Assembly (NCBI GenBank): GCA_018666575.1
Contig: JABIYX010000096.1
Coordinates: forward strand, 1 to 34,193
DNA from: Methanobacteriota archaeon
GTDB lineage: Archaea; Thermoplasmatota; Poseidoniia; Poseidoniales; Poseidoniaceae
Direction: 5' to 3'
DNA: 34,193 nt
Position 1 is the first letter of the stretch; each line of letters begins with the position of its first letter. Shown piece after piece: positions 9,783 through 34,193 of the stretch. The notes under the pieces are model-generated. The model saw only the letters and a list, made by a program, of their open reading frames with translations. It did no database searches and was not told the DNA's origin. The position numbers were made by a program, and so were the translations under genes.

Positions 9783-11447
9783 TCATTCCTCTTCGACTAC
9801 TTCGAACATGTTGAAGAATTCATCGATATCAATGAATCCATTTTCATCAGCGTCTGCATTGTGGAAAATCGTTCTTGATTCGTCAGAAGTATAGTTGAAT
9901 CCAAGTGCAGCGAGTGCATTTTGGAATTCACGACATGTCAAATGATTCTTACCTCCAAAATCTGCTGCATGGAATACGGAAAGTCTCTTTTCGTGTTCTG
10001 ATTTGGTAGCAAATTTGAATTGATTCTTGAACGTGCTGAGAGGAGTGTCAGAAACTGATGCGTGCTTTATCCCATACAGATAGTACGTCAAAGAACCCAC
10101 AAGAATTGCCACACCGCCTCCAATGAAGGCTTTCTGTCCAATGAATGTTAGAAGGAACGCTCCTGCGACAACACCCCACATTTGCATGTATGGATACAAC
10201 GGACCTTTGTAACTAGGATTCCAATCATGTTCTGTACTGGTTTGACGCAAGATGACAACACAGGTGTTGATCATAATGAAAATCATGATTTTAAAACCTG
10301 ATGCGACCTTTACTACGTCTGCCAGAGGCACAAACAAAATCGCAAGACCCATTGCAACTCCTGTGATGAGAATTGGGAAATGAGGTGTTTCGAATCTCAC
10401 ATTGACTTCTTCGAGGGCTTGAGGCAGTAGATTATCACGGGACATTGCAAAGAGGAAGCGTGATGATGCTAGTATTCCGGCAAGGGCCATTGAAATCATT
10501 GTAAGAACCGATACAATTGCTGCAAAAATACCAAACTTCGTCCCAGCAACTTCTTCTGCGAATATGAAGATTGGATTCTCAACGACCTCTCCGCTCGAGT
10601 CGAGCCACCATTCCCCAGGAATTGCTGCCATCATGAGGAAGGCTATTGCAGAATACAAGACTGTTGCAATCAAAAGAGAAAGCAAGATTCCGGCTGGTAA
10701 ATTCTTTTCTGGATCTTTAACCTCACCTCCAATTGCTGCAACTTTCGTAACGCCAGCATAAGCAACGAAAACAAATGCAGCAGCCTCCGCAAGCGACCAA
10801 ACCGATGCATTGAGCGCTCCATCGATAGGGCGACTTGCATCAAAATCGTCAACAAAGAACGCCCCTGCGCATATGAACAACAGAAGTGCTACAGTTGTAA
10901 TGACGACTGGCGTTTGAATGGCCTTGACTTTTTTTACGCCGAGTATGTTTACAATTGTAATCAAGACTAAGGCACTCATCGACAAAATGAGTATGTCCAT
11001 TTCGATGTCAAAGTATGTCGTTACAACAACAAAATATGCAGAGAATCCAATCAACGCGAAAGCTGATTTTAATAGAAAAGACGTCCAGAGACCAAGACCA
11101 CTAATGGTACCGATAAGCGGCCCATATGTCCGTTCCATGTAGACGTATGAACCTCCGCTTGAGGGCATGCCTGAAGCCAGTTCGGATTTTGAAATCGCAG
11201 CAGGTAAAACCACTGACGCTGCAAGCAGGAAAGCAAGCCAAATACCCGGGCCCATTATTTCTGCCGCAAAGGTAGGTGTGATGAAAATACCAGGAAGCAT
11301 TGCTGACAGGGAGATGATTACGACACCAGATAGACCAATTGTTCTGGCCAGTGTATTTTTGATTCGGTCGGGGACTTTTTCGAGCAACGAATCGACGTGA
11401 GCGCCGATGGATGCAGAGTTGGGACGAGTTGTTGCCACGCTTTCCAT
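9783..11447 (-). CDS. APC-superfamily amino-acid permease with C-terminal EF-hand domain
   Basis: 554 residues. About 12 TM helices occupy residues 30-460, beginning with the APC TM1 pattern IGLSGVVIISLSAMLPGIF, then SELASGMPSSGGSYVYMERTYGP, which is diagnostic of APC amino-acid transporters. After the membrane domain the last ~75 residues (KSEHEKRLSVFHAADFGG...) form an EF-hand pair: a degenerate loop DFGGKNHLTCRE and a perfect 12-residue calcium loop DADENGFIDIDE (about 532-543). The EF module should face the cytosol and suggests control of transport by Ca2+. The transported amino acid cannot be told. The gene is alone on its strand, convergent with the aspS operon, and has TATA elements just upstream. 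Confidence 0.9.
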   Translation of the reverse strand: MESVATTRPNSASIGAHVDSLLEKVPDRIKNTLARTIGLSGVVIISLSAMLPGIFITPTFAAEIMGPGIWLAFLLAASVVLPAAISKSELASGMPSSGGSYVYMERTYGPLIGTISGLGLWTSFLLKSAFALIGFSAYFVVVTTYFDIEMDILILSMSALVLITIVNILGVKKVKAIQTPVVITTVALLLFICAGAFFVDDFDASRPIDGALNASVWSLAEAAAFVFVAYAGVTKVAAIGGEVKDPEKNLPAGILLSLLIATVLYSAIAFLMMAAIPGEWWLDSSGEVVENPIFIFAEEVAGTKFGIFAAIVSVLTMISMALAGILASSRFLFAMSRDNLLPQALEEVNVRFETPHFPILITGVAMGLAILFVPLADVVKVASGFKIMIFIMINTCVVILRQTSTEHDWNPSYKGPLYPYMQMWGVVAGAFLLTFIGQKAFIGGGVAILVGSLTYYLYGIKHASVSDTPLSTFKNQFKFATKSEHEKRLSVFHAADFGGKNHLTCREFQNALAALGFNYTSDESRTIFHNADADENGFIDIDEFFNMFEVVEEE

Positions 11448-19183: not shown

Positions 19184-20005
19184 CTATTTCTCAATGTTCG
19201 TAAGAGCGTGTAACCGCTTCTTCAAGAGAGCAGGAGTTTCGATTCCAAGTTGCATAAACAAATGCATTGTATCTGAAAGAAGAAGAAGTGCATCATCAAA
19301 GCGAGTCTCTATTTCTGCAAGGTCAGCCAATCCCCAACTCGCAACAAGATGGCCTGCAGGATGTTCCATCGATTTGGCGATATCAAGACTCTCTTGATAC
19401 ATTTCAGAAGCGGTTGCAAGTTCGCCGAGGCTGGCTTGAGCATGCGCTACATCCGCCATTGCTTCCATCTGAAGAACATCATTTTGGTTGTTTACAGCAA
19501 GTTCTAGCCTTCGAGTATCATGAATAATAGCAGTCTCCCAATCCTCATTTGCTCGTGAGCAGCGAGAGAGTACGGCCAATCCGAAGATGATTCCTTCCTT
19601 ATCGTCTAATTTCTCTCTCAAGGTAAGTGAGCGGCGTACAGAGGTCTGTGCGCCATCAATGTCATCAATTGAAAGAAGCATGAGTGCGTGATGATGAAGA
19701 ACTCCAGCAGCAAGAGCATCACCGTTTTCAATTGATTCTGATTTGAACGCAAGTTCAGCCACATCATCGATTGAGCCTTGATTTCGCTTCAACATTTCAA
19801 AGCGTGCCCATCCTTTCTCGACATCGTCTTTCGCAACAACACCTGCATGTTCGACTAATCTCTCGAGGAGATCATAATCTCCTATGGATTCAACAAGCGG
19901 AAGAATTCCAAGTGCAAGGGAGGTGTTGATGGATTCCATGGCCCCTCCTTGGGTAAGCATTGAAACAATTTCTTGTGCTTGTTCGGGAGTGATCTCTTCT
20001 GCCAT
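19184..20005 (-). CDS. Tetratricopeptide-repeat (TPR) protein
   Basis: 273 residues, all helical, soluble, with no signal peptide. About four TPR-like helical pairs between residues 95 and 260, e.g. AAGVLHHHALMLLSIDDIDGAQTSVRRSLTL, AVLSRCSRANEDWETAIIHDTRRLEL, ADVAHAQASLGELATASEMYQESLDIAK and WGLADLAEIETRFDDALLLLSDTM. The acidic N-terminal part (MAEEITPEQAQEIVSML) is unrelated to known domains. Probably a scaffold for protein-protein contacts; partner unknown. It begins divergently from the DNase gene and ends 60 nt before the LLM gene on the same strand. Confidence 0.8.
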   Translation of the reverse strand: MAEEITPEQAQEIVSMLTQGGAMESINTSLALGILPLVESIGDYDLLERLVEHAGVVAKDDVEKGWARFEMLKRNQGSIDDVAELAFKSESIENGDALAAGVLHHHALMLLSIDDIDGAQTSVRRSLTLREKLDDKEGIIFGLAVLSRCSRANEDWETAIIHDTRRLELAVNNQNDVLQMEAMADVAHAQASLGELATASEMYQESLDIAKSMEHPAGHLVASWGLADLAEIETRFDDALLLLSDTMHLFMQLGIETPALLKKRLHALTNIEK

Positions 20006-20057
20006 GGTGTCGCCAGAATCATCCGCGTCAAGAACCTATGGATTCTGCTGATGAAGG

Positions 20058-20071
20058 GCTGTATATTGATA
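20058..20071 (+). promoter_or_regulatory. TATA-like element of the DNase I-like gene
   Basis: GCTGTATATTGATA is centred about 30 nt before the ATG at 20095, predicting a message with only a few leader bases. This supports 20095 over the ORF-track start at 20038, which lies upstream of the element. It may also serve the divergent TPR gene, since TATCAATATACAG on the minus strand is TATA-like. Confidence 0.45.
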
Positions 20072-20094
20072 ATGTAGAATTGTTTCCTCTTATT

Positions 20095-21057
20095 ATGGGT
20101 CGTTTCGATGGAGCACTTCAGGGGGTTATGTTAGTCACCCTATTGCTGCTGTTTCCAATCACAATCCAACTCTTGGTTCAACAAGATGAGAGCCCATTAT
20201 GGCGAACAGTCATCGTCGAAATCGAATCCGAACAAGAAGACAATGGAACAGACGCGCGTACTGAATCATTGTCCCGAGAAGATGTCGCCCGTATTGCAAC
20301 GTTCAACATCAAAGTATTCGGAGAAACAAAGATGGGGAAGGCAGAGGTTGTCGCAGAATTAGTCGAAATAGTTCATCGTTTCGACATGGTTGTTGTACAA
20401 GAAATCAAGGACATTGATTCAACTGTACCGTATGACTTTTTGGATGCCATCAACCAATACGGAAACGAAACCTACGCAATGGTTCTGAGTGAACGTTCTG
20501 GACTTCAAGAAGACGATAGTGGAAGTCAGGAACAATATGCATTTTATTATCGTGAGTCTGTCTTTGTTCCAATCGAATCATGGCTACACAATGATTCAGC
20601 GGATGATTCCTTCCAGCGTGAACCCTTCATTGCAAACTTTGGAATGATGAATCTCAACAACACCATCACTGAAAATATGACTTTTATCACAGTCCATACC
20701 AAGCCTGCTGAAGCAGTGAATGAAACCTCAGCGTTGCATGATGTTGTTGAAACATATTTGGAGAACCGTACGCAAGAGCACATTATTTTACTTGGAGATT
20801 TCAATGCAGACTGTAGTTATGCATCAACATATGAATTGAATCAACTTTCCCTACGCCAACCACAATACTTGTGGGTCGTACCAGATTCTGCAGACACTGC
20901 GTATTCCTCAAGCAGCCACTGTGCATATGATCGAGTTGTCATGACCGGGGATATCGATGGACGATTCTTTGGCCGCTGGGGTGTTGATAGGGATATGTCA
21001 GGTTCGAACGTTTCAGACCATTACCCCGTTTGGTTCGATTTAGACCGCATCGATTAA
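20095..21057 (+). CDS. Membrane-anchored DNase I-like endonuclease
   Basis: 320 residues from the ATG at 20095. One N-terminal TM anchor (VMLVTLLLLFPITIQLLV) is followed by an acidic linker and a domain strikingly like animal DNase I. Shared blocks are RIATFNIKVFGETKM, MVVVQEIKD, FQREPFIANF, GDFNADCSY, VPDSADT, HCAYDRVV and SDHYPV. In ORF numbering from 20038, the counterparts of bovine Asn7, Glu39, Glu78, His134, Asp168, Asn170, Asp212 and His252 are N90, E122, E152, H220, D254, N256, D298 and H328. The structural disulfide pair is kept (C259/C295); the second DNase I disulfide is absent. It should degrade extracellular DNA at the cell surface. galK follows after 12 nt. Confidence 0.9.
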   Translation: MGRFDGALQGVMLVTLLLLFPITIQLLVQQDESPLWRTVIVEIESEQEDNGTDARTESLSREDVARIATFNIKVFGETKMGKAEVVAELVEIVHRFDMVVVQEIKDIDSTVPYDFLDAINQYGNETYAMVLSERSGLQEDDSGSQEQYAFYYRESVFVPIESWLHNDSADDSFQREPFIANFGMMNLNNTITENMTFITVHTKPAEAVNETSALHDVVETYLENRTQEHIILLGDFNADCSYASTYELNQLSLRQPQYLWVVPDSADTAYSSSSHCAYDRVVMTGDIDGRFFGRWGVDRDMSGSNVSDHYPVWFDLDRID

Positions 21058-21069
21058 GGCGGTAGGAAA

Positions 21070-21900
21070 ATGCATCGAATTGCTTCAATTCCTGCACGTA
21101 TCAACATCATTGGTGAACATACAGATTACGCAGGAGGGCTCTCTTTTGCATTTGCAGCACCTCAACGCCTTACGTTGAAAGCAACAGCGATAAAAGAAGG
21201 ATTTGAAGGTGAAAGTACGGTTATTACTCTTTGGAAAGAGGCTAATGGATGGCCGGCTCAACTAACCGTAACAAGCGAGATTCCCATCGGAGCTGGAATG
21301 TCTTCTTCTGCTGCCCTGTGTTTGGCAATCGTTCTGTGCGTTAACAAAGACATTGATGCGTTCCAAGCATGTCGTGAAGCACAACGAATCGAACATGTCG
21401 TGCTCGGGACGAAGTGCGGCTTGCTCGACCAAATGGCAATGATGTATTCCAAACCAAACCATGCAGTCTTGATCGATTTCACAAACCATACAACCAACCT
21501 TTACCCTTTATCTGAATCACATGTGTTCAAACTTATTGATTCTGGAATTCATAGAAGATTGGGAGAAGTTGACTATCGGACATCTGCTGATGAACAGACC
21601 AAGAACATACATGTCGGTGAGGAGAATGAACGCGTTATGAATGCAATTGAAGCCTCTTCCGTTGAATTGGGATTGCTTCTCAATGCATCTCACGAATCAT
21701 TACGTACCATTGGAGTGAGTTTGGAAGAAGTAGATCAACAAGTTACGGCACTTCAGAACACGCCTGGAGTTCTCGGAGCACGGATGATGGGCGGTGGATT
21801 TGGAGGGATGATTCTCGTGCTTGTAGAACATGAGGAAATCTTACCGGAAGCAGCCCATGTGCAAGCATCAGAGGCTGGTTTTGTTCAGGAATTCTTCTAA
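21070..21900 (+). CDS. galK: Galactokinase-like GHMP sugar kinase (short form)
   Basis: 276 residues, against ~350-390 for typical GalK. All three GHMP motifs are intact: PARINIIGEHTDYAGG (sugar-binding N-terminus), PIGAGMSSSAAL (ATP P-loop) and GARMMGGGFGG. GLLDQMAMMYSKPNHAVLIDF carries the catalytic Asp of GalK. The missing length is mainly in the N-terminal and middle loops, so it may be a minimal galactokinase or a related C1-sugar kinase. The product would be galactose 1-phosphate. It follows the DNase gene by 12 nt with a GGCGGTAGG Shine-Dalgarno-like stretch. Its 3' end overlaps the 3' end of the opposing GH1-nucleotidyltransferase gene by 33 nt. Confidence 0.85.
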   Translation: MHRIASIPARINIIGEHTDYAGGLSFAFAAPQRLTLKATAIKEGFEGESTVITLWKEANGWPAQLTVTSEIPIGAGMSSSAALCLAIVLCVNKDIDAFQACREAQRIEHVVLGTKCGLLDQMAMMYSKPNHAVLIDFTNHTTNLYPLSESHVFKLIDSGIHRRLGEVDYRTSADEQTKNIHVGEENERVMNAIEASSVELGLLLNASHESLRTIGVSLEEVDQQVTALQNTPGVLGARMMGGGFGGMILVLVEHEEILPEAAHVQASEAGFVQEFF

Positions 21901-23844
21901 TCGTTCCAGACGCTCAGGTGTACCCATGTCCCAGAACTTGGTATTGTCAATATACGCATTGGCTTTCATTGACATTCGGGGATAGACTGTTTCTTCCCAA
22001 CTCCATTTTCCCTCTTTCCCATGTTCGAGAAGAACGGATTTCTCTACGACACTGGTCCCTGATTCATATCCATTGAATTCTGAAGGAGGAGTTCCGCTTT
22101 TATCGTATTGTGAAATTCTCCCATCTACATGGAGAAGATTCATCTCACTGTGTTCAGTTGTCACTGTAAGTGTCAATGGAGAGGATGTCCGTTCGTGGTG
22201 AGCAACGATTGCAGCATAATCGATTGGATGGAAATCATCACCCCAGAGTAAGATAAACTTGTCCTGAAGAAGATGTCGAGCATTCCACAGCGCACCACCA
22301 GTTCCGAGAGGTTCTGGTTCCTGATAGAATGTTAGAGCCATTCCTTCGTGTCGAAATCCATTGAATTGTTCACCTAAGTGTCCTGTTAGAATCAATGCTT
22401 CCATGCAACCTTGCCGTCCAGCCCAGTCAAGAATATGAGAAAGAATAGGTTTTCCAGACACCTCGATCAATGATTTGGGCATTTGTTCTGTCAGTTCTCC
22501 AAGCCGAGTGCCTAAACCACCTGCTAAGATGACAACTTGGGGCATACGATGCTTTTTAACAATCTTTGAGTATAACGCACCACTCTCTTTTAGCGTCCGT
22601 TGTTTCGTTTCAAAATCGACATGATAAAGTCCGAATCGTTGGTCATATCCTTCAGCCCATTCGAAGTTATCCATAAGACTCCAATGATAGAATCCACGAA
22701 TGTCCATACCATCAGCAATCGCTTCTCCAGTAATCTGTAAATGACGTCTGATGTGTTCTGGGCGCATATCATCATCATCATCAGCAACTCCATTTTCAGT
22801 CACAATAATTGGAAGATTCAGGCATGAGACCATGTCAAAAGCTCGCCGTAAGCCCTCCGCATACATTGGATACCTGAAATCAGTACGTTCTTCCCATGGA
22901 CGAATCAAGGGGTCAATATCCACCTTTGTTGGCATGAATGGAGTAGCAAGAAGATGCGTGTAGTAATTGACACCAATGAAATCACTGCTCCCTTTCAGAC
23001 CAGGAATCTTCTTTGATCGAATGGCTGAAGGAGCCTTGAATCGTCCTGTCATCAAACCTTTTATCCAACATAGGTTGAACATTCCATCCAGTAAACGTGC
23101 TTGGAATCGATGCAACGGATTCCAGCGTCGGTATGGGTCGAAGAGATTGATGTTCTTTACCAGTCCAATTTGGGCACGTGCCCCATGCTCCATGGATTTC
23201 AGTGCATGATAACAACGTGCGTGAGCAATCATGAGATTCGTTGAGACAATTCTCGTCTTCTTGAAGGAACGTTCGCCTGGAGGAAACTCACCGAGAACAT
23301 ATCCCATCGATGCAAACACAGCGGGTTCGTTGATGGTGCACCACCAATCCACTCGGTCACTCAAGACGCCAAACATTTTCTTCGAGAAACGAATCCAATC
23401 TTCGACATTGTTTTCTTGTTCAAAACCGCCTTTATCATCCCACCAAAGAGGGTGAGTGAAATGATGGAGCGTGGCCATAGGCTGAATGCCTTTTGCTAGA
23501 AGTTGGTCAACAAGGTCAGAGTACCACCGAATTGCATCTTCATCCCAAACCCCCTGTTGAGGCTCAATACGGCTCCATTCTATTGAGAACCTGTAGTGTG
23601 AAACATTCAAGTCTTTAATCAATTGAATGTCTTCTTGTTTTCGATTCCAATGATCGCATGCATCACCGCTAAGTTGACCACTCTTTGAGCGGGATTCAAA
23701 TGCAGACCAATTGTTGGTATTTCCACCTTCGATTTGATGAGAAGCAGTAGCAACACCCCACATGAAATCTGGTGGGAAAAGTCCCCCATTTAGAAGAGAA
23801 GTATAGTCGACTGAGTCCCAATCACGATGTTCTTCAATCCCCAT
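21868..23844 (-). CDS. Bifunctional fusion: GH1 beta-glycosidase plus sugar-1-phosphate nucleotidyltransferase
   Basis: 658 residues. Residues 20-432 are a glycoside hydrolase family 1 barrel: PDFMWGVATASHQIEGG, HYRFSIEWSRIEPQQG, acid/base Glu173 in TINEP, nucleophile Glu350 in VTENG, and YHWSLMDNFEWAEGYDQRFGLYHVDF. From Met434 the frame continues without a stop into a nucleotidyltransferase (VVILAGGLGTRLGELTEQMPKSLIEV; GDDFHPIDY metal site; ending KFWDMGTPERLERLEEFL) of the mannose-1-phosphate guanylyltransferase/HddC-like group. No signal peptide, so cytosolic. With GalK opposite, it suggests salvage of an imported beta-glycoside: cleave, phosphorylate at C1, activate to NDP-sugar. It lies 26 nt after the Ig-like protein gene. 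Confidence 0.9.
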   Translation of the reverse strand: MGIEEHRDWDSVDYTSLLNGGLFPPDFMWGVATASHQIEGGNTNNWSAFESRSKSGQLSGDACDHWNRKQEDIQLIKDLNVSHYRFSIEWSRIEPQQGVWDEDAIRWYSDLVDQLLAKGIQPMATLHHFTHPLWWDDKGGFEQENNVEDWIRFSKKMFGVLSDRVDWWCTINEPAVFASMGYVLGEFPPGERSFKKTRIVSTNLMIAHARCYHALKSMEHGARAQIGLVKNINLFDPYRRWNPLHRFQARLLDGMFNLCWIKGLMTGRFKAPSAIRSKKIPGLKGSSDFIGVNYYTHLLATPFMPTKVDIDPLIRPWEERTDFRYPMYAEGLRRAFDMVSCLNLPIIVTENGVADDDDDMRPEHIRRHLQITGEAIADGMDIRGFYHWSLMDNFEWAEGYDQRFGLYHVDFETKQRTLKESGALYSKIVKKHRMPQVVILAGGLGTRLGELTEQMPKSLIEVSGKPILSHILDWAGRQGCMEALILTGHLGEQFNGFRHEGMALTFYQEPEPLGTGGALWNARHLLQDKFILLWGDDFHPIDYAAIVAHHERTSSPLTLTVTTEHSEMNLLHVDGRISQYDKSGTPPSEFNGYESGTSVVEKSVLLEHGKEGKWSWEETVYPRMSMKANAYIDNTKFWDMGTPERLERLEEFLNKTSL

Positions 23845-26465: not shown

Positions 26466-26472
26466 ATCACCT
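26466..26472 (-). promoter_or_regulatory. Shine-Dalgarno site of the Ig-like protein gene
   Basis: The minus strand reads AGGTGAT, ending 3 nt before the ATG at 26462 and overlapping the TAG stop of the giant gene. It is fully complementary to the 16S tail. It fixes the start at 26462 and indicates cotranscription with the giant gene. Confidence 0.65.
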
Positions 26473-29400
26473 AATCTTCCCAAACAACCCAATCGGTTTG
26501 ACCGGGTTCTCGATAATACCATGTCTCATCTTCATTTTGAGCCCACTCGGTTCCGTCGTCATCAACTCGATGTTCAACCATCCAACTTGTATCTTCTTTT
26601 TCTTCAGCTTCTTGCGGAGGATTTGATGGAGCTGGGCCACTCGGACCAGTTCCAGGAGCAGGCCCACTCGGACCAGTTCCAGGTGCAGGACCGCTCGGGC
26701 CTTTTCCAGGAGCAGGGCCACTCGGACCACGTGCTGTTGGGGTGGAGTCTTCTTCGTCTTCGTCATAATCATCATCCCAATCACCATCACCTCTTCCAGA
26801 ACGGAGAGCCATGACTAAAAGAACAAGTAGAACAACGGCGATCAAACCAATCAGAACGGCTCCTACATAGTACAAAGCGCCACCTGCTGCAAAGAATCCA
26901 CCTAAGGTTCCAGTAACCTCGATTTCAACATCTTCACTGACTTGTCCTGCTGTAACTGTGATTGTTTGAGGGCCACTATCAAGTGTTGTGACTCTCCATT
27001 GACCAGGTCCAAGTTCTTTGACAGTTCCACGGCCAGTTGAATCAACACGTGCGCTGCTTGGCACAGGGATAGGATTGTAGAACATGTCCTTTGCTTCAAC
27101 TGTTACATCAATCGATGCTTGCTGGTCTACAGTTGTCGCAGATAAGACAACGTCAAGATAGGCAACGACCATTTGCGGTTGTATTAAAAGTTCAAACGTG
27201 TTTGTTGCAGTCGGTGTTGAATACACCATAACATGTTCACCAGCAACGGATGCTTGGTAAGTGTAGGCACCAATATCAGCACGAGGGACAATTCGAGAAG
27301 AAGTTGTTCCATCTTCAGTCCATTCAACGTCCTGTGCGAAGGTGTTACCATCATCATCGGTACCAGTAATCACAATGTCAATCGATTCCCCAGCGTCTTC
27401 GCTCAGAGTATCAAGAGCGTGATCAAGGGAGACGGCAATACCATGATACACTGAAATGTCAACTTGCTTTGAGTAATTGAATCCATCTGCATTAACAACG
27501 TATCCAGTAATTCTGTAGGATCCCACAGTGGTTGCTTCCCAATGATAAGCATCAGCTTCGAACGTTGAAGTCATGTCGATAACAGAACCGGAATTCAAAT
27601 CTTCGAATAACCAAGTAAGTCTTGAAGAGTCAAGAGCATTCAAATCCCCATCGCTTAGACTTACAGAGAAATCCACGTAATGATCAGCACTGATATTGTA
27701 TGATGTTCCCGAATCACCCGTAGATGTAATCGAATTCATGGTAAATATCTGCAAGATACCCTCTGTGACAGTTGCAGATACTGATTCACTAAACACAACG
27801 CCTTCAAAGGTGTATTCCGCATAGATCATGTATGGTATTTCAGAGGCCAATTGAGGCATGAATTCGGTCTCATCAGACAGCGTGTACAACAAAACAGATT
27901 GGTCAGTCCAACTCGGATGAGCGATGCTCCAATTTACATCGATGGTCCATCGATTACCTTTCGCATCTGTTGCCTTTGCTTTCACTTGTAGAGTTTCATC
28001 AGCGGTTAAACTGTAGGATTGATCATTCGCATCAGTTGATTCAACAATTAGTGCCATACCAGTCATTGCACCCTTTGTGACATTGACTGTAATTGACGCA
28101 GATATGGATTCATACTGAGCAGTAATCACTCGACCGCCGAGACCAGTTGGAATCCATTGTACTGGGTGATTGAATGTGACGTTTACAGCGCCATCACTCA
28201 CAAAGGTCCAATTTGCTAACGGTAAGGAAACAGGTAGTCTGTTTCCTTGAATGTCGATTCTTGTGGTGTTCATGAAGATGATTTCATCAGCGGTTAGGTC
28301 CCATGCAGATGGAATGATTTCAAGCGAATCCATGGCTCCATGCCCTGTTGTAATGGTGAGTGAATCCGACAACCCAATTCCAGAAGTTAGAGAGAATTGC
28401 CACGTACCTACGTTATCGGCAAAGTACATGCTCGTTGCTTCACTGAAAAGTCCATCAGTTACTGAATAGGTTAGTGCGCCTGCTTGAGCCAATGGAATAG
28501 TGTTTCCAAATTGGTCGTACAAAGTGGTTGTGATCTCACATTCAGTTCCTGCAGGAGTAACTCCCTCACAGCCTGTCAAAACAATGCTTGAAGGAGCACC
28601 AAGTTCAACTTGAACGTTAACAATCACAGTGATTGTTGTCCATGTGATGGAAACGGTTTGACCGCCAACTGAGTACGGTTGGAATTCATCGCCAAAGGTA
28701 CCTGTCATGGATCCGTTACTCGGTGTAAAGGAGATGCTTTCACCTGGAACAACATTGCCGAATTGGTCAACAACATCTGCAGTTAGTTGAAGTGTCTCAT
28801 CCGCAGTAATGGTCGCAGTCAGAGGAGTTACCACCAAGTTAACTGGAGCACCTGGCGTTACCGTAACTGTTTCATCAGCACAGATGACGCCAAAGCAAGC
28901 GGTGATGGTATGAACTCCGGATGTAGAGGGCGTATATACTCCTGTAGAGGTATCAATTTGACCGCTGGAAGCAGACCAAACAATCGGTACAGTTGCAACA
29001 AGTGAGTTGTAATCAAATGTCGAAGCACTGAATGTTACGGATGTATCTGCATCTGTGGTTGTTGCAGTTGGAGAAATTGTTACCGAATCAATGTCGGTGT
29101 AATTCATTTGCATAAGCGGTCTTGTACTGCTGGTTGAATCGCTGTTATCTGCAAATTCAACTGTCATCCATCCCTGATTGACGGTTGCAATGATGACCCA
29201 TCCATGCGTACCATCAATGAAGAGAGAGCGATGCCCTAGACTCATCTGCAGCCATTGGTTGGTCGCTTGAGAATTACTGACATAGAATGTATCCAGTGGT
29301 GTTGAATCATAATCCACACCCGGTTGGAGACCAGGGGCACCCCAGTTTGCAGAACCTGTTCCGTTCCATGTCACTGAAGTTTCACCCCAGCCTGATGTTA

Positions 29401-32400
29401 GGACTTTGTGAACAGAGAGGGTCATACCAGTTGCACCTGCACCGAAATCAAGATCAGTAAGATACAAACTCAAATCTACAGAATGAACATTCATGTTAGG
29501 ATTGAACGGTATTTGACCGAAATCTGTGGAGACAAGCATTCGATATTCATCTTGACCTGAATCGATACCAATGATACTTGAATCACCATCTAAGTTAGCA
29601 TCTGCAGTTCCACTGTAGACGGAAGCATCTTCCACATTTGTGTGAGCCATTTCTTGAATTTCATTTCCAGTTTGGAATTCATAGGTCCATGTGTGATCAA
29701 AATTATCTTGTGTTGTTGGATCACCGATACCTACGATCCATCTGGAAGAAGAGGGGCCTGGGATTGAACCATTGACTGCCTGAACCCACCATTCAAAGGT
29801 TGATCCTGGAGAGAGAGAACTGCCGAAAACAAAGTTCGTTCCTGTGATTTGACTTGATATTCCAGACTTGAAATTGTATTGTCCAGAAGAATTACGGATG
29901 GTAACGATGTACCCTGTCGCTCCAGTCACTGCATTCCAAGAAAGGGTTGGCTTGTCCAAGGATTCGAGCAAAGTTGTTGTCGTGTTGTACAACACAGTAC
30001 CGTCTGCAGGAGAGAGAAGGACTGGTTGCGCAGGTGGAATTACACCTGCCACGTTATCAACATAATCGACGCGAAGAACAGGTCGCAATGTTGTAGAAGA
30101 AGACTCACCTGAATGGAACGAATGTAAACTGCTTGCAGTACCAGCAGCTGCTAGTTTAATTGTCATTGAAAGATTTCCATTAGCGATGTTGGATTGAGCC
30201 AATGAAGTAATATCCCATTCCAACCAACCATTTGGTGGTGTTACTGGCAGGGTAGAACGGGTTATTTCTGTAGCATTACATGTGGGTGTTTGCAATGCTG
30301 TGACAAAACCTTCGTTGAATGTTGAACAAGCATGAGCACTCACAGTCAATGGCGAGACACCAGTTACTTGTGTCCGATACATTCGCAGCATCACAGAGGT
30401 TGGAGTAATTGCACTTGGCCAAGGCATCTGTGACAAATCATATTCAATGTACACTTCATGATCACCAGAAGTACCAGAACCAAGCAGTAGAGAAGCACTT
30501 GAGCCATAGTTCGTGTTAAATGATGAGGATGAAGTATAGGCGTCAGGAGCGGCAGGAAGGAGACCTGTGCTTGTAAAAATCGACCCACTTGATAGGATTA
30601 CAGTATGGTTTCCTAAGCCATCATCGTAACCTTGTGCATCAGGAATACGGTATTTGTTGACTTGAGAATATTCTCCAATTCTGTAGTAATCTTCAATCAA
30701 TTGGTAGGACAAAACTCGCCAATATTGCCATTCGTCGCCAGATGTAGCATTTGTATTCGTAAGTGTGGTAGTCGATGGATCCCAAGTGAGATTTGACTCG
30801 CTGAGAGAAGTAGCGTCCGTTGACAATACACAAGCAAGATCGTAAATCATTCGAGCATCAGAGGCAGAACAAATCTGGAAACCTGTTTCGTTAGACGACG
30901 GTGGTGTCCATGAATGGTTCACATGATCAACTCCAGTTGGGCGAGGGGCAGACATGTTCCATAGAGTCGAACTGTCGACAGGAAGAAGGTTTGTTGGAGT
31001 TGAAGCGACGTATGGGTTCGTTGATCGATACGTGAGGTTCAGACTTGGACGCAAACTTGTGGAAGCTTCATCACTCGAGAAGAAATCAATTCTACCATCA
31101 ACACTACTGAAATTCTCTTCAGGTTGAACGAGAATGTGAATCGTGTTCACTCCTTGAGCAAGGGCTTGTTGAATGACTTCCGTGATATTTCCAAAGACCG
31201 ATGAATCATCTGAATCGATTAGACCTGCTCCGTTCATTGGAACTGAAGTATCAGATGAATGATAGGCACCTGGTGCATTCCAAGTGGTTGAACTTGTCGC
31301 GTTATTCCAGTTTGCATTTCCATCGAATGACGTGAGAACCTTGGATTGGCTAGCCCAAACTTCTCCATACGAACCAGATTCTGTGGTGAGGTAAAGTTCG
31401 GCAGACATAACTTCAACCGAATTCCCAAGCGGTAGTTTCGAGATATCTATTGAAAAGAGGACCGAAGAACGAGCGGATGTACTGGTTGTGAAGGAGGAAC
31501 GGCCGATACTTAGGACGCTATCACCTGAAAGATCATAATTCGGAGAGCCAGAATCGAGTCCAATGTCTTGTATGAAACCAGATGGTTCGTTGAGAGATGG
31601 CAAGAAACCTCCTTCAGAAATGTTGAGGTATCCCCATGTACTGTTAATCTCTTGACCGATATCATGAGGAATGTGGAACACTGAACTTGTGGAACGTGGA
31701 CCTAGCATACTGTTGTTTACAGGTTGAACAAACCATCGAATGCTTTGATTTGTATCGAGATCATTCGACGGTTGGAATGTTAGACTTTGCAAATCAAACA
31801 TTGAACTGTCAACACGTGAATCATACGTGGTGAAACCTTCCATGATGTCAGAAGCATCATTTTGGAGGAAAACCTTCCAATCATCAATGTTCGCAGAATT
31901 AGAATGTGTCCAACTCAAAACTGGACGTGTTTCTGGTTCTGCTACGTGTGTTGAGAAATTCCAAGCCATATCCCCATCTGTAGGCAATGCGTTTGCACCA
32001 GCAACAGTAGGAATTGACGAAGTCCCTGCACTCCAAGTGAGGTTTAGCCATGGCCGTTGTGTGGCAAGGCCTTCTGTGCTTGCGAATGTAATCAGAGAAT
32101 CAGATGAGTCACTGGTCATGAGAGCAATTGAAAGGTACGAATCTCCGTTTGCGAGTGCTGCTTGTACAAGTTCAGTAACATCCCAATCCATCCAGTCAGC
32201 ACTTGCAGAGGTACTCAAATCACTAAGTTGGCCTACGTCGTTTCCAATAGAACGGCCTCCGTCTAAAGTCCATGAATTCGTGCCATCATACGTAGAATTG
32301 TTGAGATCGGTAGTCCATGATTGCAATACTGGTCGAACTGCAATTTCAGTATTCGTATCCGAACCGACGAGGGCCCACAAGTTCAATTCTGCGTTTGTAA

Positions 32401-34193
32401 CACGAGCATTGGAAGGCGATGGTACTTGATCGAGTGGTATCTTTAGAAGCGCAGTCGATTGATAACCGCTGCCGAGTTCTCCTACCTTCATTGAAGTGGA
32501 TGTCGAGTGGTTTTGTTGCCCTTCTATGCCGCCTTCAGCCAACCATGTGTCAATGAAATGTGGAAGGCCTAAATCTGGCATTGCTTCCTCATGTCGAATC
32601 TCAACTGCTGCACTGGTCGATGAAAGGTTCCATGTTGTAATCGACGGGATGTTGAAATGGAAGGTTTGTGACCAATTTCCAAGTTGATTTGTTGTAGAAA
32701 TTGTTCGTACACGCCAGTACCATGTTTCGCCAACTGTCAAATCGTTTTGAGGAGTAAATGTCTTAGCACTCATATCGAAACCAGAATTCGACCATGAGGT
32801 CTCTATGCTCATTTCGTTGCTGTCAAAGGTTTCTGTTGTATCGGTCTGGACCGCATATCCGCCAACGCTAATTCCGCTGGAATGTGTCCAAGAGAGCATT
32901 GGTTGAAGCACTGGTTCAGGGTTGATTCCGGGTTGAATACTCCAAGAACCATTCAATGGAGTTACTGGAACTGGTTCAATTGGTATTGCGTTCGAACCAG
33001 GAACATAGACGAAACTAAGTTCTGGACGTTTTGCATCAACTGCACTTCCAGTGTGGAAAAGAGCATCTCGAATTTGACCAGAACCAGCTCCAAGAATACC
33101 GAGAATAAAGTCTGCAGAGTGGTTGTTTCTCATGGCATTTTGCATTGCAAGTGTAACGTTCCAATTAACAGATGAACTGGAGGTGTACCCGCTGCCAATT
33201 GTTACTGAATCGAGCAATGAGGTCCGCTCAGAGCCCTTTGCCCCAACCATGCCCCATGCGTTTGTTCCGTCATATGTTGCCCATGTAGCGTCGTCTTCAG
33301 TCCAATTGTGTTGGTTGCTTTCCCAAGCACCGACAACAGGGGAGCCAGATGGGGAGTCGCTGAGATGGACTTCTAGACTCGCAGATTCTACAGCGTAGCC
33401 GGTTGGTAGGAAAGTGCTTGAAAGATCACATCCGAACAAAATTGTTGTTTCGGAAGGAATCGTATTGTACGAAACTTGGAGTTCAGATTCCTGCCCATAG
33501 TTTGATGTTGGCATACCAGAATCAATGTATGTATCAGAACAAGCAGGGTGGAGCCCATCGGAACTTGCATTGCCTTGTTTGAGTCTGAACTCATACCGAT
33601 CGCCACCAAGCCATGTCGAATTCATGTTACTGATCAGGAATGTCGAATACGACCAATCACCATGTCTTCCGTCAGAATCAATGTGAAGCATTCTCCAATT
33701 GTACATGTGCCCTTCTTCAAGGCTGTCAGATCCTGTAAAAGAGAAGTCTCCATCACTTGGCAAGAAATCCGAATCGACACGAGTGTCTACGTATACCACT
33801 CGATCATGGAATTGACCGTCTGTTGACAATTCAAAAATCATATCATATGAACTGGATGTAGTAGCCGACCACGTTAATGAAGGAGTCGTATTTCCTGTAA
33901 AGTTGTGACCTGTTTGATTCCACAGGGTTTCTCCATCGTATGGAGAAGTTAGAGAAGGTGCAACGGTGACTGGTGTACCCCATTCATATTTGATGTACAG
34001 ATATGGTTTTTCTGATTCAGTTGTTGCATCGGAAGAATGGAAAGTTACGGAATCAATTCCTGCATTTGCAGAGTAATCTCCATTTTCTGAGCGTGTTGTT
34101 ATTGCAAAGTCGATTACACCCGTGTTTCCATCGTCCAGGTGTTGTTGTAGTTCAGAAGTTAAATCAAACGAAAAATCATCACTGATCTGAGAA
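26471..34193 (-). CDS. Giant adhesin-like membrane protein with DNRLRE-like, FN3-like and Ig-like repeats (5'-partial)
   Basis: The track stops at 33841, but the frame is open to the window edge, giving at least 2573 residues; signal peptide and start lie outside. The N-terminal two thirds alternate FN3-like modules (pattern P-x-L-S-W...WYWRVR) with about six DNRLRE/CBM96-like domains, each ending in RPxLxLxY-like strands (RPELSFVYV, RPWLNLTW, RPSLNLTY, RPVLRVDY, RPLMQMNY). The C-terminal third has Big-type Ig repeats (ADETLQLTADVVDQFGNVV, LTADETLQVKAKATDAKGN). One TM helix (VGAVLIGLIAVVLLVLLVMAL), an acidic DDDYDEDEED stretch, four GPSGPAPG repeats and a Trp-rich C-terminal module (GTEWAQNEDETWYYREPGQTDWVVWED) follow. 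Probably binds polysaccharide or particles. Head of an operon with the Ig-like protein. Confidence 0.88.
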   Translation of the reverse strand, partial: SQISDDFSFDLTSELQQHLDDGNTGVIDFAITTRSENGDYSANAGIDSVTFHSSDATTESEKPYLYIKYEWGTPVTVAPSLTSPYDGETLWNQTGHNFTGNTTPSLTWSATTSSSYDMIFELSTDGQFHDRVVYVDTRVDSDFLPSDGDFSFTGSDSLEEGHMYNWRMLHIDSDGRHGDWSYSTFLISNMNSTWLGGDRYEFRLKQGNASSDGLHPACSDTYIDSGMPTSNYGQESELQVSYNTIPSETTILFGCDLSSTFLPTGYAVESASLEVHLSDSPSGSPVVGAWESNQHNWTEDDATWATYDGTNAWGMVGAKGSERTSLLDSVTIGSGYTSSSSVNWNVTLAMQNAMRNNHSADFILGILGAGSGQIRDALFHTGSAVDAKRPELSFVYVPGSNAIPIEPVPVTPLNGSWSIQPGINPEPVLQPMLSWTHSSGISVGGYAVQTDTTETFDSNEMSIETSWSNSGFDMSAKTFTPQNDLTVGETWYWRVRTISTTNQLGNWSQTFHFNIPSITTWNLSSTSAAVEIRHEEAMPDLGLPHFIDTWLAEGGIEGQQNHSTSTSMKVGELGSGYQSTALLKIPLDQVPSPSNARVTNAELNLWALVGSDTNTEIAVRPVLQSWTTDLNNSTYDGTNSWTLDGGRSIGNDVGQLSDLSTSASADWMDWDVTELVQAALANGDSYLSIALMTSDSSDSLITFASTEGLATQRPWLNLTWSAGTSSIPTVAGANALPTDGDMAWNFSTHVAEPETRPVLSWTHSNSANIDDWKVFLQNDASDIMEGFTTYDSRVDSSMFDLQSLTFQPSNDLDTNQSIRWFVQPVNNSMLGPRSTSSVFHIPHDIGQEINSTWGYLNISEGGFLPSLNEPSGFIQDIGLDSGSPNYDLSGDSVLSIGRSSFTTSTSARSSVLFSIDISKLPLGNSVEVMSAELYLTTESGSYGEVWASQSKVLTSFDGNANWNNATSSTTWNAPGAYHSSDTSVPMNGAGLIDSDDSSVFGNITEVIQQALAQGVNTIHILVQPEENFSSVDGRIDFFSSDEASTSLRPSLNLTYRSTNPYVASTPTNLLPVDSSTLWNMSAPRPTGVDHVNHSWTPPSSNETGFQICSASDARMIYDLACVLSTDATSLSESNLTWDPSTTTLTNTNATSGDEWQYWRVLSYQLIEDYYRIGEYSQVNKYRIPDAQGYDDGLGNHTVILSSGSIFTSTGLLPAAPDAYTSSSSFNTNYGSSASLLLGSGTSGDHEVYIEYDLSQMPWPSAITPTSVMLRMYRTQVTGVSPLTVSAHACSTFNEGFVTALQTPTCNATEITRSTLPVTPPNGWLEWDITSLAQSNIANGNLSMTIKLAAAGTASSLHSFHSGESSSTTLRPVLRVDYVDNVAGVIPPAQPVLLSPADGTVLYNTTTTLLESLDKPTLSWNAVTGATGYIVTIRNSSGQYNFKSGISSQITGTNFVFGSSLSPGSTFEWWVQAVNGSIPGPSSSRWIVGIGDPTTQDNFDHTWTYEFQTGNEIQEMAHTNVEDASVYSGTADANLDGDSSIIGIDSGQDEYRMLVSTDFGQIPFNPNMNVHSVDLSLYLTDLDFGAGATGMTLSVHKVLTSGWGETSVTWNGTGSANWGAPGLQPGVDYDSTPLDTFYVSNSQATNQWLQMSLGHRSLFIDGTHGWVIIATVNQGWMTVEFADNSDSTSSTRPLMQMNYTDIDSVTISPTATTTDADTSVTFSASTFDYNSLVATVPIVWSASSGQIDTSTGVYTPSTSGVHTITACFGVICADETVTVTPGAPVNLVVTPLTATITADETLQLTADVVDQFGNVVPGESISFTPSNGSMTGTFGDEFQPYSVGGQTVSITWTTITVIVNVQVELGAPSSIVLTGCEGVTPAGTECEITTTLYDQFGNTIPLAQAGALTYSVTDGLFSEATSMYFADNVGTWQFSLTSGIGLSDSLTITTGHGAMDSLEIIPSAWDLTADEIIFMNTTRIDIQGNRLPVSLPLANWTFVSDGAVNVTFNHPVQWIPTGLGGRVITAQYESISASITVNVTKGAMTGMALIVESTDANDQSYSLTADETLQVKAKATDAKGNRWTIDVNWSIAHPSWTDQSVLLYTLSDETEFMPQLASEIPYMIYAEYTFEGVVFSESVSATVTEGILQIFTMNSITSTGDSGTSYNISADHYVDFSVSLSDGDLNALDSSRLTWLFEDLNSGSVIDMTSTFEADAYHWEATTVGSYRITGYVVNADGFNYSKQVDISVYHGIAVSLDHALDTLSEDAGESIDIVITGTDDDGNTFAQDVEWTEDGTTSSRIVPRADIGAYTYQASVAGEHVMVYSTPTATNTFELLIQPQMVVAYLDVVLSATTVDQQASIDVTVEAKDMFYNPIPVPSSARVDSTGRGTVKELGPGQWRVTTLDSGPQTITVTAGQVSEDVEIEVTGTLGGFFAAGGALYYVGAVLIGLIAVVLLVLLVMALRSGRGDGDWDDDYDEDEEDSTPTARGPSGPAPGKGPSGPAPGTGPSGPAPGTGPSGPAPSNPPQEAEEKEDTSWMVEHRVDDDGTEWAQNEDETWYYREPGQTDWVVWED
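26631..26733 (-). repeat. Four 27-bp tandem repeats encoding GPSGPAPG(T/K)
   Basis: Four imperfect 27-bp units lie inside the giant membrane protein gene, encoding a Gly/Pro-rich collagen-like spacer between the acidic juxtamembrane stretch and the C-terminal Trp-rich module. Units differ at third codon positions and at one Thr/Lys codon, so they are old enough to have diverged but could still change copy number. Confidence 0.8.

Follow-up and report, generated by a model that had tools for sequence, protein, structure and literature searches.

The closest known enzymes to the protein reported here include vertebrate DNase I (DNASE1, EC 3.1.21.1) and DNASE1L3 (DNase gamma). Among archaea, the surface thermonuclease Hvo_1477 is required for growth of Haloferax on DNA (PMC3929857). 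In surface waters, no archaea are more abundant than Marine Group II (MGII). MGII live by the degradation of large organic molecules (PMC6336850). The full texts of two MGII genome papers mention no nuclease for this group (PMC6461757, PMC6336850), and no paper describing DNase I in MGII was found in a literature search that fell short of most subscription journals. The window analysed here, the whole 34,193-nt stretch of contig JABIYX010000096.1 (assembly GCA_018666575.1), lies in an MGII (Poseidoniaceae) genome, and its nuclease belongs to a clade of membrane-anchored proteins within an enzyme family already known.

A DNase I-family gene in Marine Group II

The longest open reading frame (ORF) spans 20038–21057 on the forward strand and encodes 339 aa. 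MGII orthologues share the start motif M-[GA]-x-x-[DG]-x-x-L-Q, located at the Met of 20095, and because they begin at this motif, a start at 20095 (Met20 of the 339-aa ORF) is better than one at 20038. The gene therefore most likely occupies 20095–21057 (+) and encodes 320 aa, and the coordinates of the original prediction are retained on the evidence of orthologue start positions. The features of the locus are as follows.

19184–20005 (−), TPR-repeat gene (TPR_12, 1.7e-7), constant neighbour, divergently transcribed
20095–21057 (+), predicted signal-anchored DNase I-family nuclease gene, 320 aa (Pfam and PDB matches, orthologue start)
20122–20181 (+), single N-terminal transmembrane helix, about residues 10–29 of 320, putative N-in/C-out signal anchor (Kyte-Doolittle; AlphaFold)
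20185–20268 (+), acidic low-confidence linker from anchor to catalytic domain (pLDDT <50 at residues 31–38 and 43–56)
20284–21045 (+), DNase I catalytic domain, EEP fold (phmmer against PDB; Foldseek)
20401–20403 (+), Glu equivalent to bovine E39, Mg ligand (alignment)
20695–20697 (+), catalytic His equivalent to bovine H134 (alignment)
20797–20805 (+), D168/N170 equivalents inside GDFNADC (alignment)
20812–20814 (+), Cys equivalent to bovine C173, one of just two Cys in the protein
20920–20922 (+), Cys equivalent to bovine C209, predicted disulfide partner (alignment)
20929–20931 (+), Asp equivalent to bovine D212 (alignment)
21016–21021 (+), D251/H252 equivalents, SDHYP motif (alignment)

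Catalytic residues and fold

The window ORF matches Pfam PF03372 (Exo_endo_phos; 2.2e-14) and, in searches of solved structures, human and bovine DNase I at 6e-41 over residues 85–332 (phmmer against the PDB) and DNASE1L3 at 1e-33; its domain is ~38% identical to human DNase1. A profile was built from 12 prokaryotic sequences, the window protein and eleven others. It separates two score groups, with DNase I-type copies covering most of the domain at 183–350 bits and generic EEP proteins at ≤93 bits. Animal DNase I and DNASE1L3 score 244–253 bits (E 1e-71 to 2e-74), and the window copy, itself included in building the profile, scores 311 bits. These bimodal scores rule out convergent motifs on a generic EEP nuclease. 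The sequence blocks first noted in the protein (FNIKVFGETKM, GDFNADCSY, PDSADT, HCAYDR and SDHYP) are all present, and the claim that its similarity extends beyond the generic EEP level holds, the match being well above chance.

The catalytic and Mg-binding set, which we take to be N7, E39, E78, H134, D168, N170, D212, D251 and H252 in bovine numbering, is identical at all nine positions in the window protein and in its MGII orthologues. The only two cysteines, C259 and C295 of the 339-aa ORF, match the bovine C173–C209 pair and are predicted to form the equivalent disulfide bond, so that the catalytic set and essential Cys pair are conserved as originally described. The C101–C104 pair is absent from the window protein, from DNASE1L3 and from all prokaryotic copies aligned. 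Residues of Ca site II are kept, as is D201 of site I, but site I also carries T203A, T205S and T207S. In the DNA-contact loop, Y76 is replaced by Ser and N74 aligns with Gln; specificity or rate may therefore differ from bovine DNase I, and these two replacements together with the Ca site I changes might affect the rate or the cofactor requirement. Four of the six actin contacts are replaced (H44D, Y65M, V67L and A114F), leaving only D53 and E69, and inhibition by actin is not expected from this alignment. DNASE1L2 and DNASE1L3 are not inhibited by actin either (PMC8323900).

An AlphaFold model made with 36 related rows (pLDDT 86) was compared with known structures. Foldseek matches to 4awn, 2dnj and 1atn reach E values of ~1e-25 (best 8e-26) with TM-target 0.86–0.88, and the top ten places in the PDB go to chains of DNase I or DNASE1L3 or to DNase I-containing complexes (TM-target 0.84–0.88, rmsd 2.2–2.7), followed by EEPD1 at 9e-14. 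The structure prediction proposed earlier thus leads back to DNase I, and the window ORF is confirmed as a true member of the DNase I family. From its residues, the enzyme is predicted to be a divalent-cation-dependent DNA endonuclease.

Membrane anchor and predicted surface location

Hydropathy analysis places an N-terminal Kyte-Doolittle peak of 2.42 at residue 10 of the window protein (1.9–2.7 in MGII orthologues), and a hydrophobic N-terminal helix was present in every MGII orthologue scanned. AlphaFold models a helix over residues 4–32, followed by an acidic disordered linker. The peak and the modelled helix bear out the proposed N-terminal transmembrane anchor. The protein contains eight N-glycosylation sequons versus 1.9 expected, a count reached in none of 500 shuffles, and sequons occur at chance level in ten further proteins of the window that are presumably cytoplasmic. 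The charge bias ahead of the helix is modest. Some homologues in DPANN and bacteria have a lipobox, and some in other Thermoplasmatota carry PKD domains. On the strength of the anchor helix, the sequon excess and the lipobox homologues, we infer with good support that the catalytic domain lies outside, at the cell surface, in the predicted C-out orientation; the surface placement first suggested for this protein is accordingly probable.

Genomic locus, distribution and selection

The gene is present in 23 of 24 genomes of the same genus and in 13 of 13 sampled genomes of genus g10 of the same family, is patchy in genera g11 and g12, and was detected in 1 of the 16 sister-family genomes. In ~60 MGII loci it occupies the same location, divergent from the TPR gene, with an unassigned gene and an asparaginase gene farther on. 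These loci come from metagenome-assembled genomes of many studies and include a 2.06 Mb MG-II chromosome record (L064). Such conservation among relatives rules out a chimeric contig, a concern raised alongside the original prediction. Between close species, dN/dS is approximately 0.03–0.04, at dS of 0.6–1.5. It is a native gene of long standing in the family, kept under strong constraint.

No DNA-metabolism genes were recognized among its neighbours in the window, and no promoter pattern was found in a sigma-70 scan, a method unsuited to archaea. A candidate decayed copy in genome G137, a weak match, did not gain confirmation from the profile.

Directly after the DNase gene, 21070–21900 (+) encodes a short galactokinase-like GHMP kinase (276 aa) scoring below the curated cut-offs for known galactokinases. 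A 658-aa fusion of a family 1 glycoside hydrolase and a sugar nucleotidyltransferase at 21868–23844 (−) is matched in related MGII loci. An amino acid permease at 9783–11447 (−) carries a C-terminal EF-hand pair that suggests Ca2+ control, and a giant 2456-aa protein at 26471–33841 (−), with three CBM96-type carbohydrate-binding stretches, is a probable surface protein.

Predicted function

The family, catalytic residues, fold, anchor helix, locus conservation, purifying selection and tree position are computed results. Taken jointly, they are probably best explained by a surface-anchored DNase I-family endonuclease with which MGII cells cut external DNA, most likely for nutrients. The single N-terminal helix would anchor the enzyme in the membrane so that its catalytic domain faces outward. 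At the cell surface the enzyme would nick or cut DNA, whether dissolved or bound to particles, and the fragments would then most likely be used for phosphorus, nitrogen or nucleobases. The enzyme itself is one member of a widespread prokaryotic DNase I family, its closest sampled relatives outside MGII being bacterial. DNA feeding is a plausible hypothesis because of the surface location, the MGII lifestyle and the Haloferax precedent. Neither a CNT nucleoside transporter nor a UshA-type 5′-nucleotidase (present in 2 of 30 genomes) was found in the window genome, and no ComEC was found in 30 genomes including this one (the control was found in 10 of 14 genomes); no salvage route emerged from these searches.

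The same surface DNase might instead serve mainly in remodelling the DNA-containing matrix of particles or aggregates, for attachment or release, which we consider unlikely as its main job. MGIIa has been proposed to be particle-associated and to carry adhesion genes (PMC6461757), ExeM, Dns and similar surface nucleases have a part in regulating biofilms, as discussed in PMC3929857, and a cell-bound enzyme reaches only DNA that touches the cell. However, neither the window nor the ~60 MGII loci show an operon for adhesion or matrix linked with the gene, and matrix remodelling would not exclude feeding.

A barrier against foreign or viral DNA, or a counter-measure to DNA traps, would fit the predicted cell-surface position and the near-universal presence of the gene in some genera. 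This role is improbable: no PADLOC defence model was matched, no defence genes were recognized around the gene in the window and, to our knowledge, free DNA is not the usual form in which viruses enter cells. Very improbable, too, is a role in transformation as the nuclease at the entrance of a DNA uptake machine, which membrane-anchored nucleases such as EndA fill in bacteria (as mentioned in PMC3929857); the absence of ComEC described above led to rejection of this competence role.

A conserved DNase on the cell surface would add DNA to the proteins and lipids that MGII are thought to degrade, and it makes the use of dissolved DNA as a phosphorus source a testable claim.

Prokaryotic relatives and the animal enzyme

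DNase I-type relatives occur well beyond MGII, in Woesearchaeota, Micrarchaeota, Diapherotrites, Nanoarchaeota and other Thermoplasmatota among archaea, and in Desulfobacteraceae, Vibrio plasmids and a bacterial phylum with 4–11 Mb genomes (possibly Myxococcota). Some of these proteins, from DPANN, Thermoplasmatota and bacteria including Vibrio, score as high as animal ones. Human DNase1 shares 43% identity with one of the bacterial proteins, L145, versus 38% with the window protein, and bacterial L147 and L149 are 44.5% and 41.7% identical to the window protein. Given a family this widespread, the special "animal-like" relationship originally proposed is not supported.

Several relatives have distinctive features. 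One Thermoplasmatota protein (L129:1847-3379) combines its DNase I domain with a PKD domain and a nuclease of the staphylococcal type in a single chain. In the copies examined from its clade (L129–L138), the Cys pair is replaced (GDLNADG...N[TA]YDR), and some IMG/VR copies show a similar change. A divergent 387-aa DNase I-type membrane protein in Poseidoniaceae genome G108 (L128:2468-3628) is possible contamination. A DNase I whose Por secretion tail is of a kind typical for Bacteroidota is encoded at L097:1329-2492, on a contig that is titled Bacteriovoracaceae and may be mis-binned.

Phages yielded no match to the window DNase and PHROGs only a weak, superfamily-level one, so a phage origin was rejected. 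Eleven putatively viral IMG/VR contigs carry related proteins, with no closeness to MGII implied.

Phylogenies were compared with and without long branches, with eukaryotes represented by vertebrate sequences only. The MGII clade joins bacterial L147/L149 in both trees. In the full tree, L128, the second and divergent copy from Poseidoniaceae, sits on a long branch with L147/L149, and the grouping of MGII, L147 and L149 without L128 is not the best one but is not rejected (AU p 0.127); in the tree without long branches, MGII+L147+L149 is supported at 100/99. The position of animals is unstable between the two trees, and L097, with its Bacteroidota-type sorting domain, joins them in one. A grouping of all archaeal copies is rejected (p 0.023), and transfer between bacteria and archaea is therefore likely. 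The original reading thus gains partial support: the protein is of the DNase I type rather than a generic EEP nuclease with convergent motifs, and the nearest neighbours of MGII are bacterial.

Transfer of the gene from animals, or of animal DNase I from this archaeal lineage, is highly improbable despite the 38% identity to human DNase1 and the strings FGETKM and PDSADT, which are shared with animals and do not occur together in the other prokaryotic sequences compared, since neither tree allows MGII and animals to form a clade (AU p 7e-5 and 0.003), MGII joins bacteria and some other bacteria are closer to human DNase1; the direct animal–archaeon exchange first suggested is thus not supported. 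The gene is better regarded as a good candidate for feeding on DNA from the environment than as a product of exchange with animals. That true DNase I is widely distributed among prokaryotes is also relevant to the origin of the animal enzyme. As a tentative scenario, bacteria may have drawn on a prokaryotic extracellular DNase I family to supply Poseidoniaceae with the surface-anchored form and, separately, animals with theirs, surface-ocean archaea perhaps drawing phosphorus and nucleobases from dissolved DNA.

Comparison with known systems

The window protein shares with vertebrate DNase I the fold, the catalytic and Mg residues checked, the Cys pair and the residues of Ca site II, at 35–38% identity over the domain. 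It differs in its transmembrane anchor, whereas the vertebrate enzyme is secreted, in lacking the C101–C104 disulfide, in Y76S and N74Q, at actin contacts H44, Y65, V67 and A114, and in forming a separate clade. With DNASE1L3 it has in common the fold, the catalytic set, the EIKD and EQYAF motif forms and the lack of C101–C104, but identity is 33%, and the full tree places DNASE1L3 beside DNASE1 and apart from MGII.

Prokaryotic DNase I-like proteins (DPANN, Thermoplasmatota, Vibrio, Desulfobacteraceae and large-genome bacteria) fall in the same profile score range, and several have a lipobox or other extracellular features. Unlike the window protein, they carry a lipobox anchor, or PKD or other N-terminal parts ahead of the domain, and in one clade, from other Thermoplasmatota, the copies examined no longer have the Cys pair. 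The mycoplasma membrane nuclease MnuA is likewise a DNase I-related surface nuclease, tied to nucleotide salvage according to PMC11729948; with a partial match of 47.6 bits against the NCBIfam NF045851 cut-off of 185, the window protein falls outside the MnuA subfamily. Haloferax Hvo_1477, a lipoprotein with a thermonuclease (SNase) domain rather than a DNase I domain, offers a functional parallel, as a nuclease on the surface of an archaeal cell that growth on DNA requires (PMC3929857).
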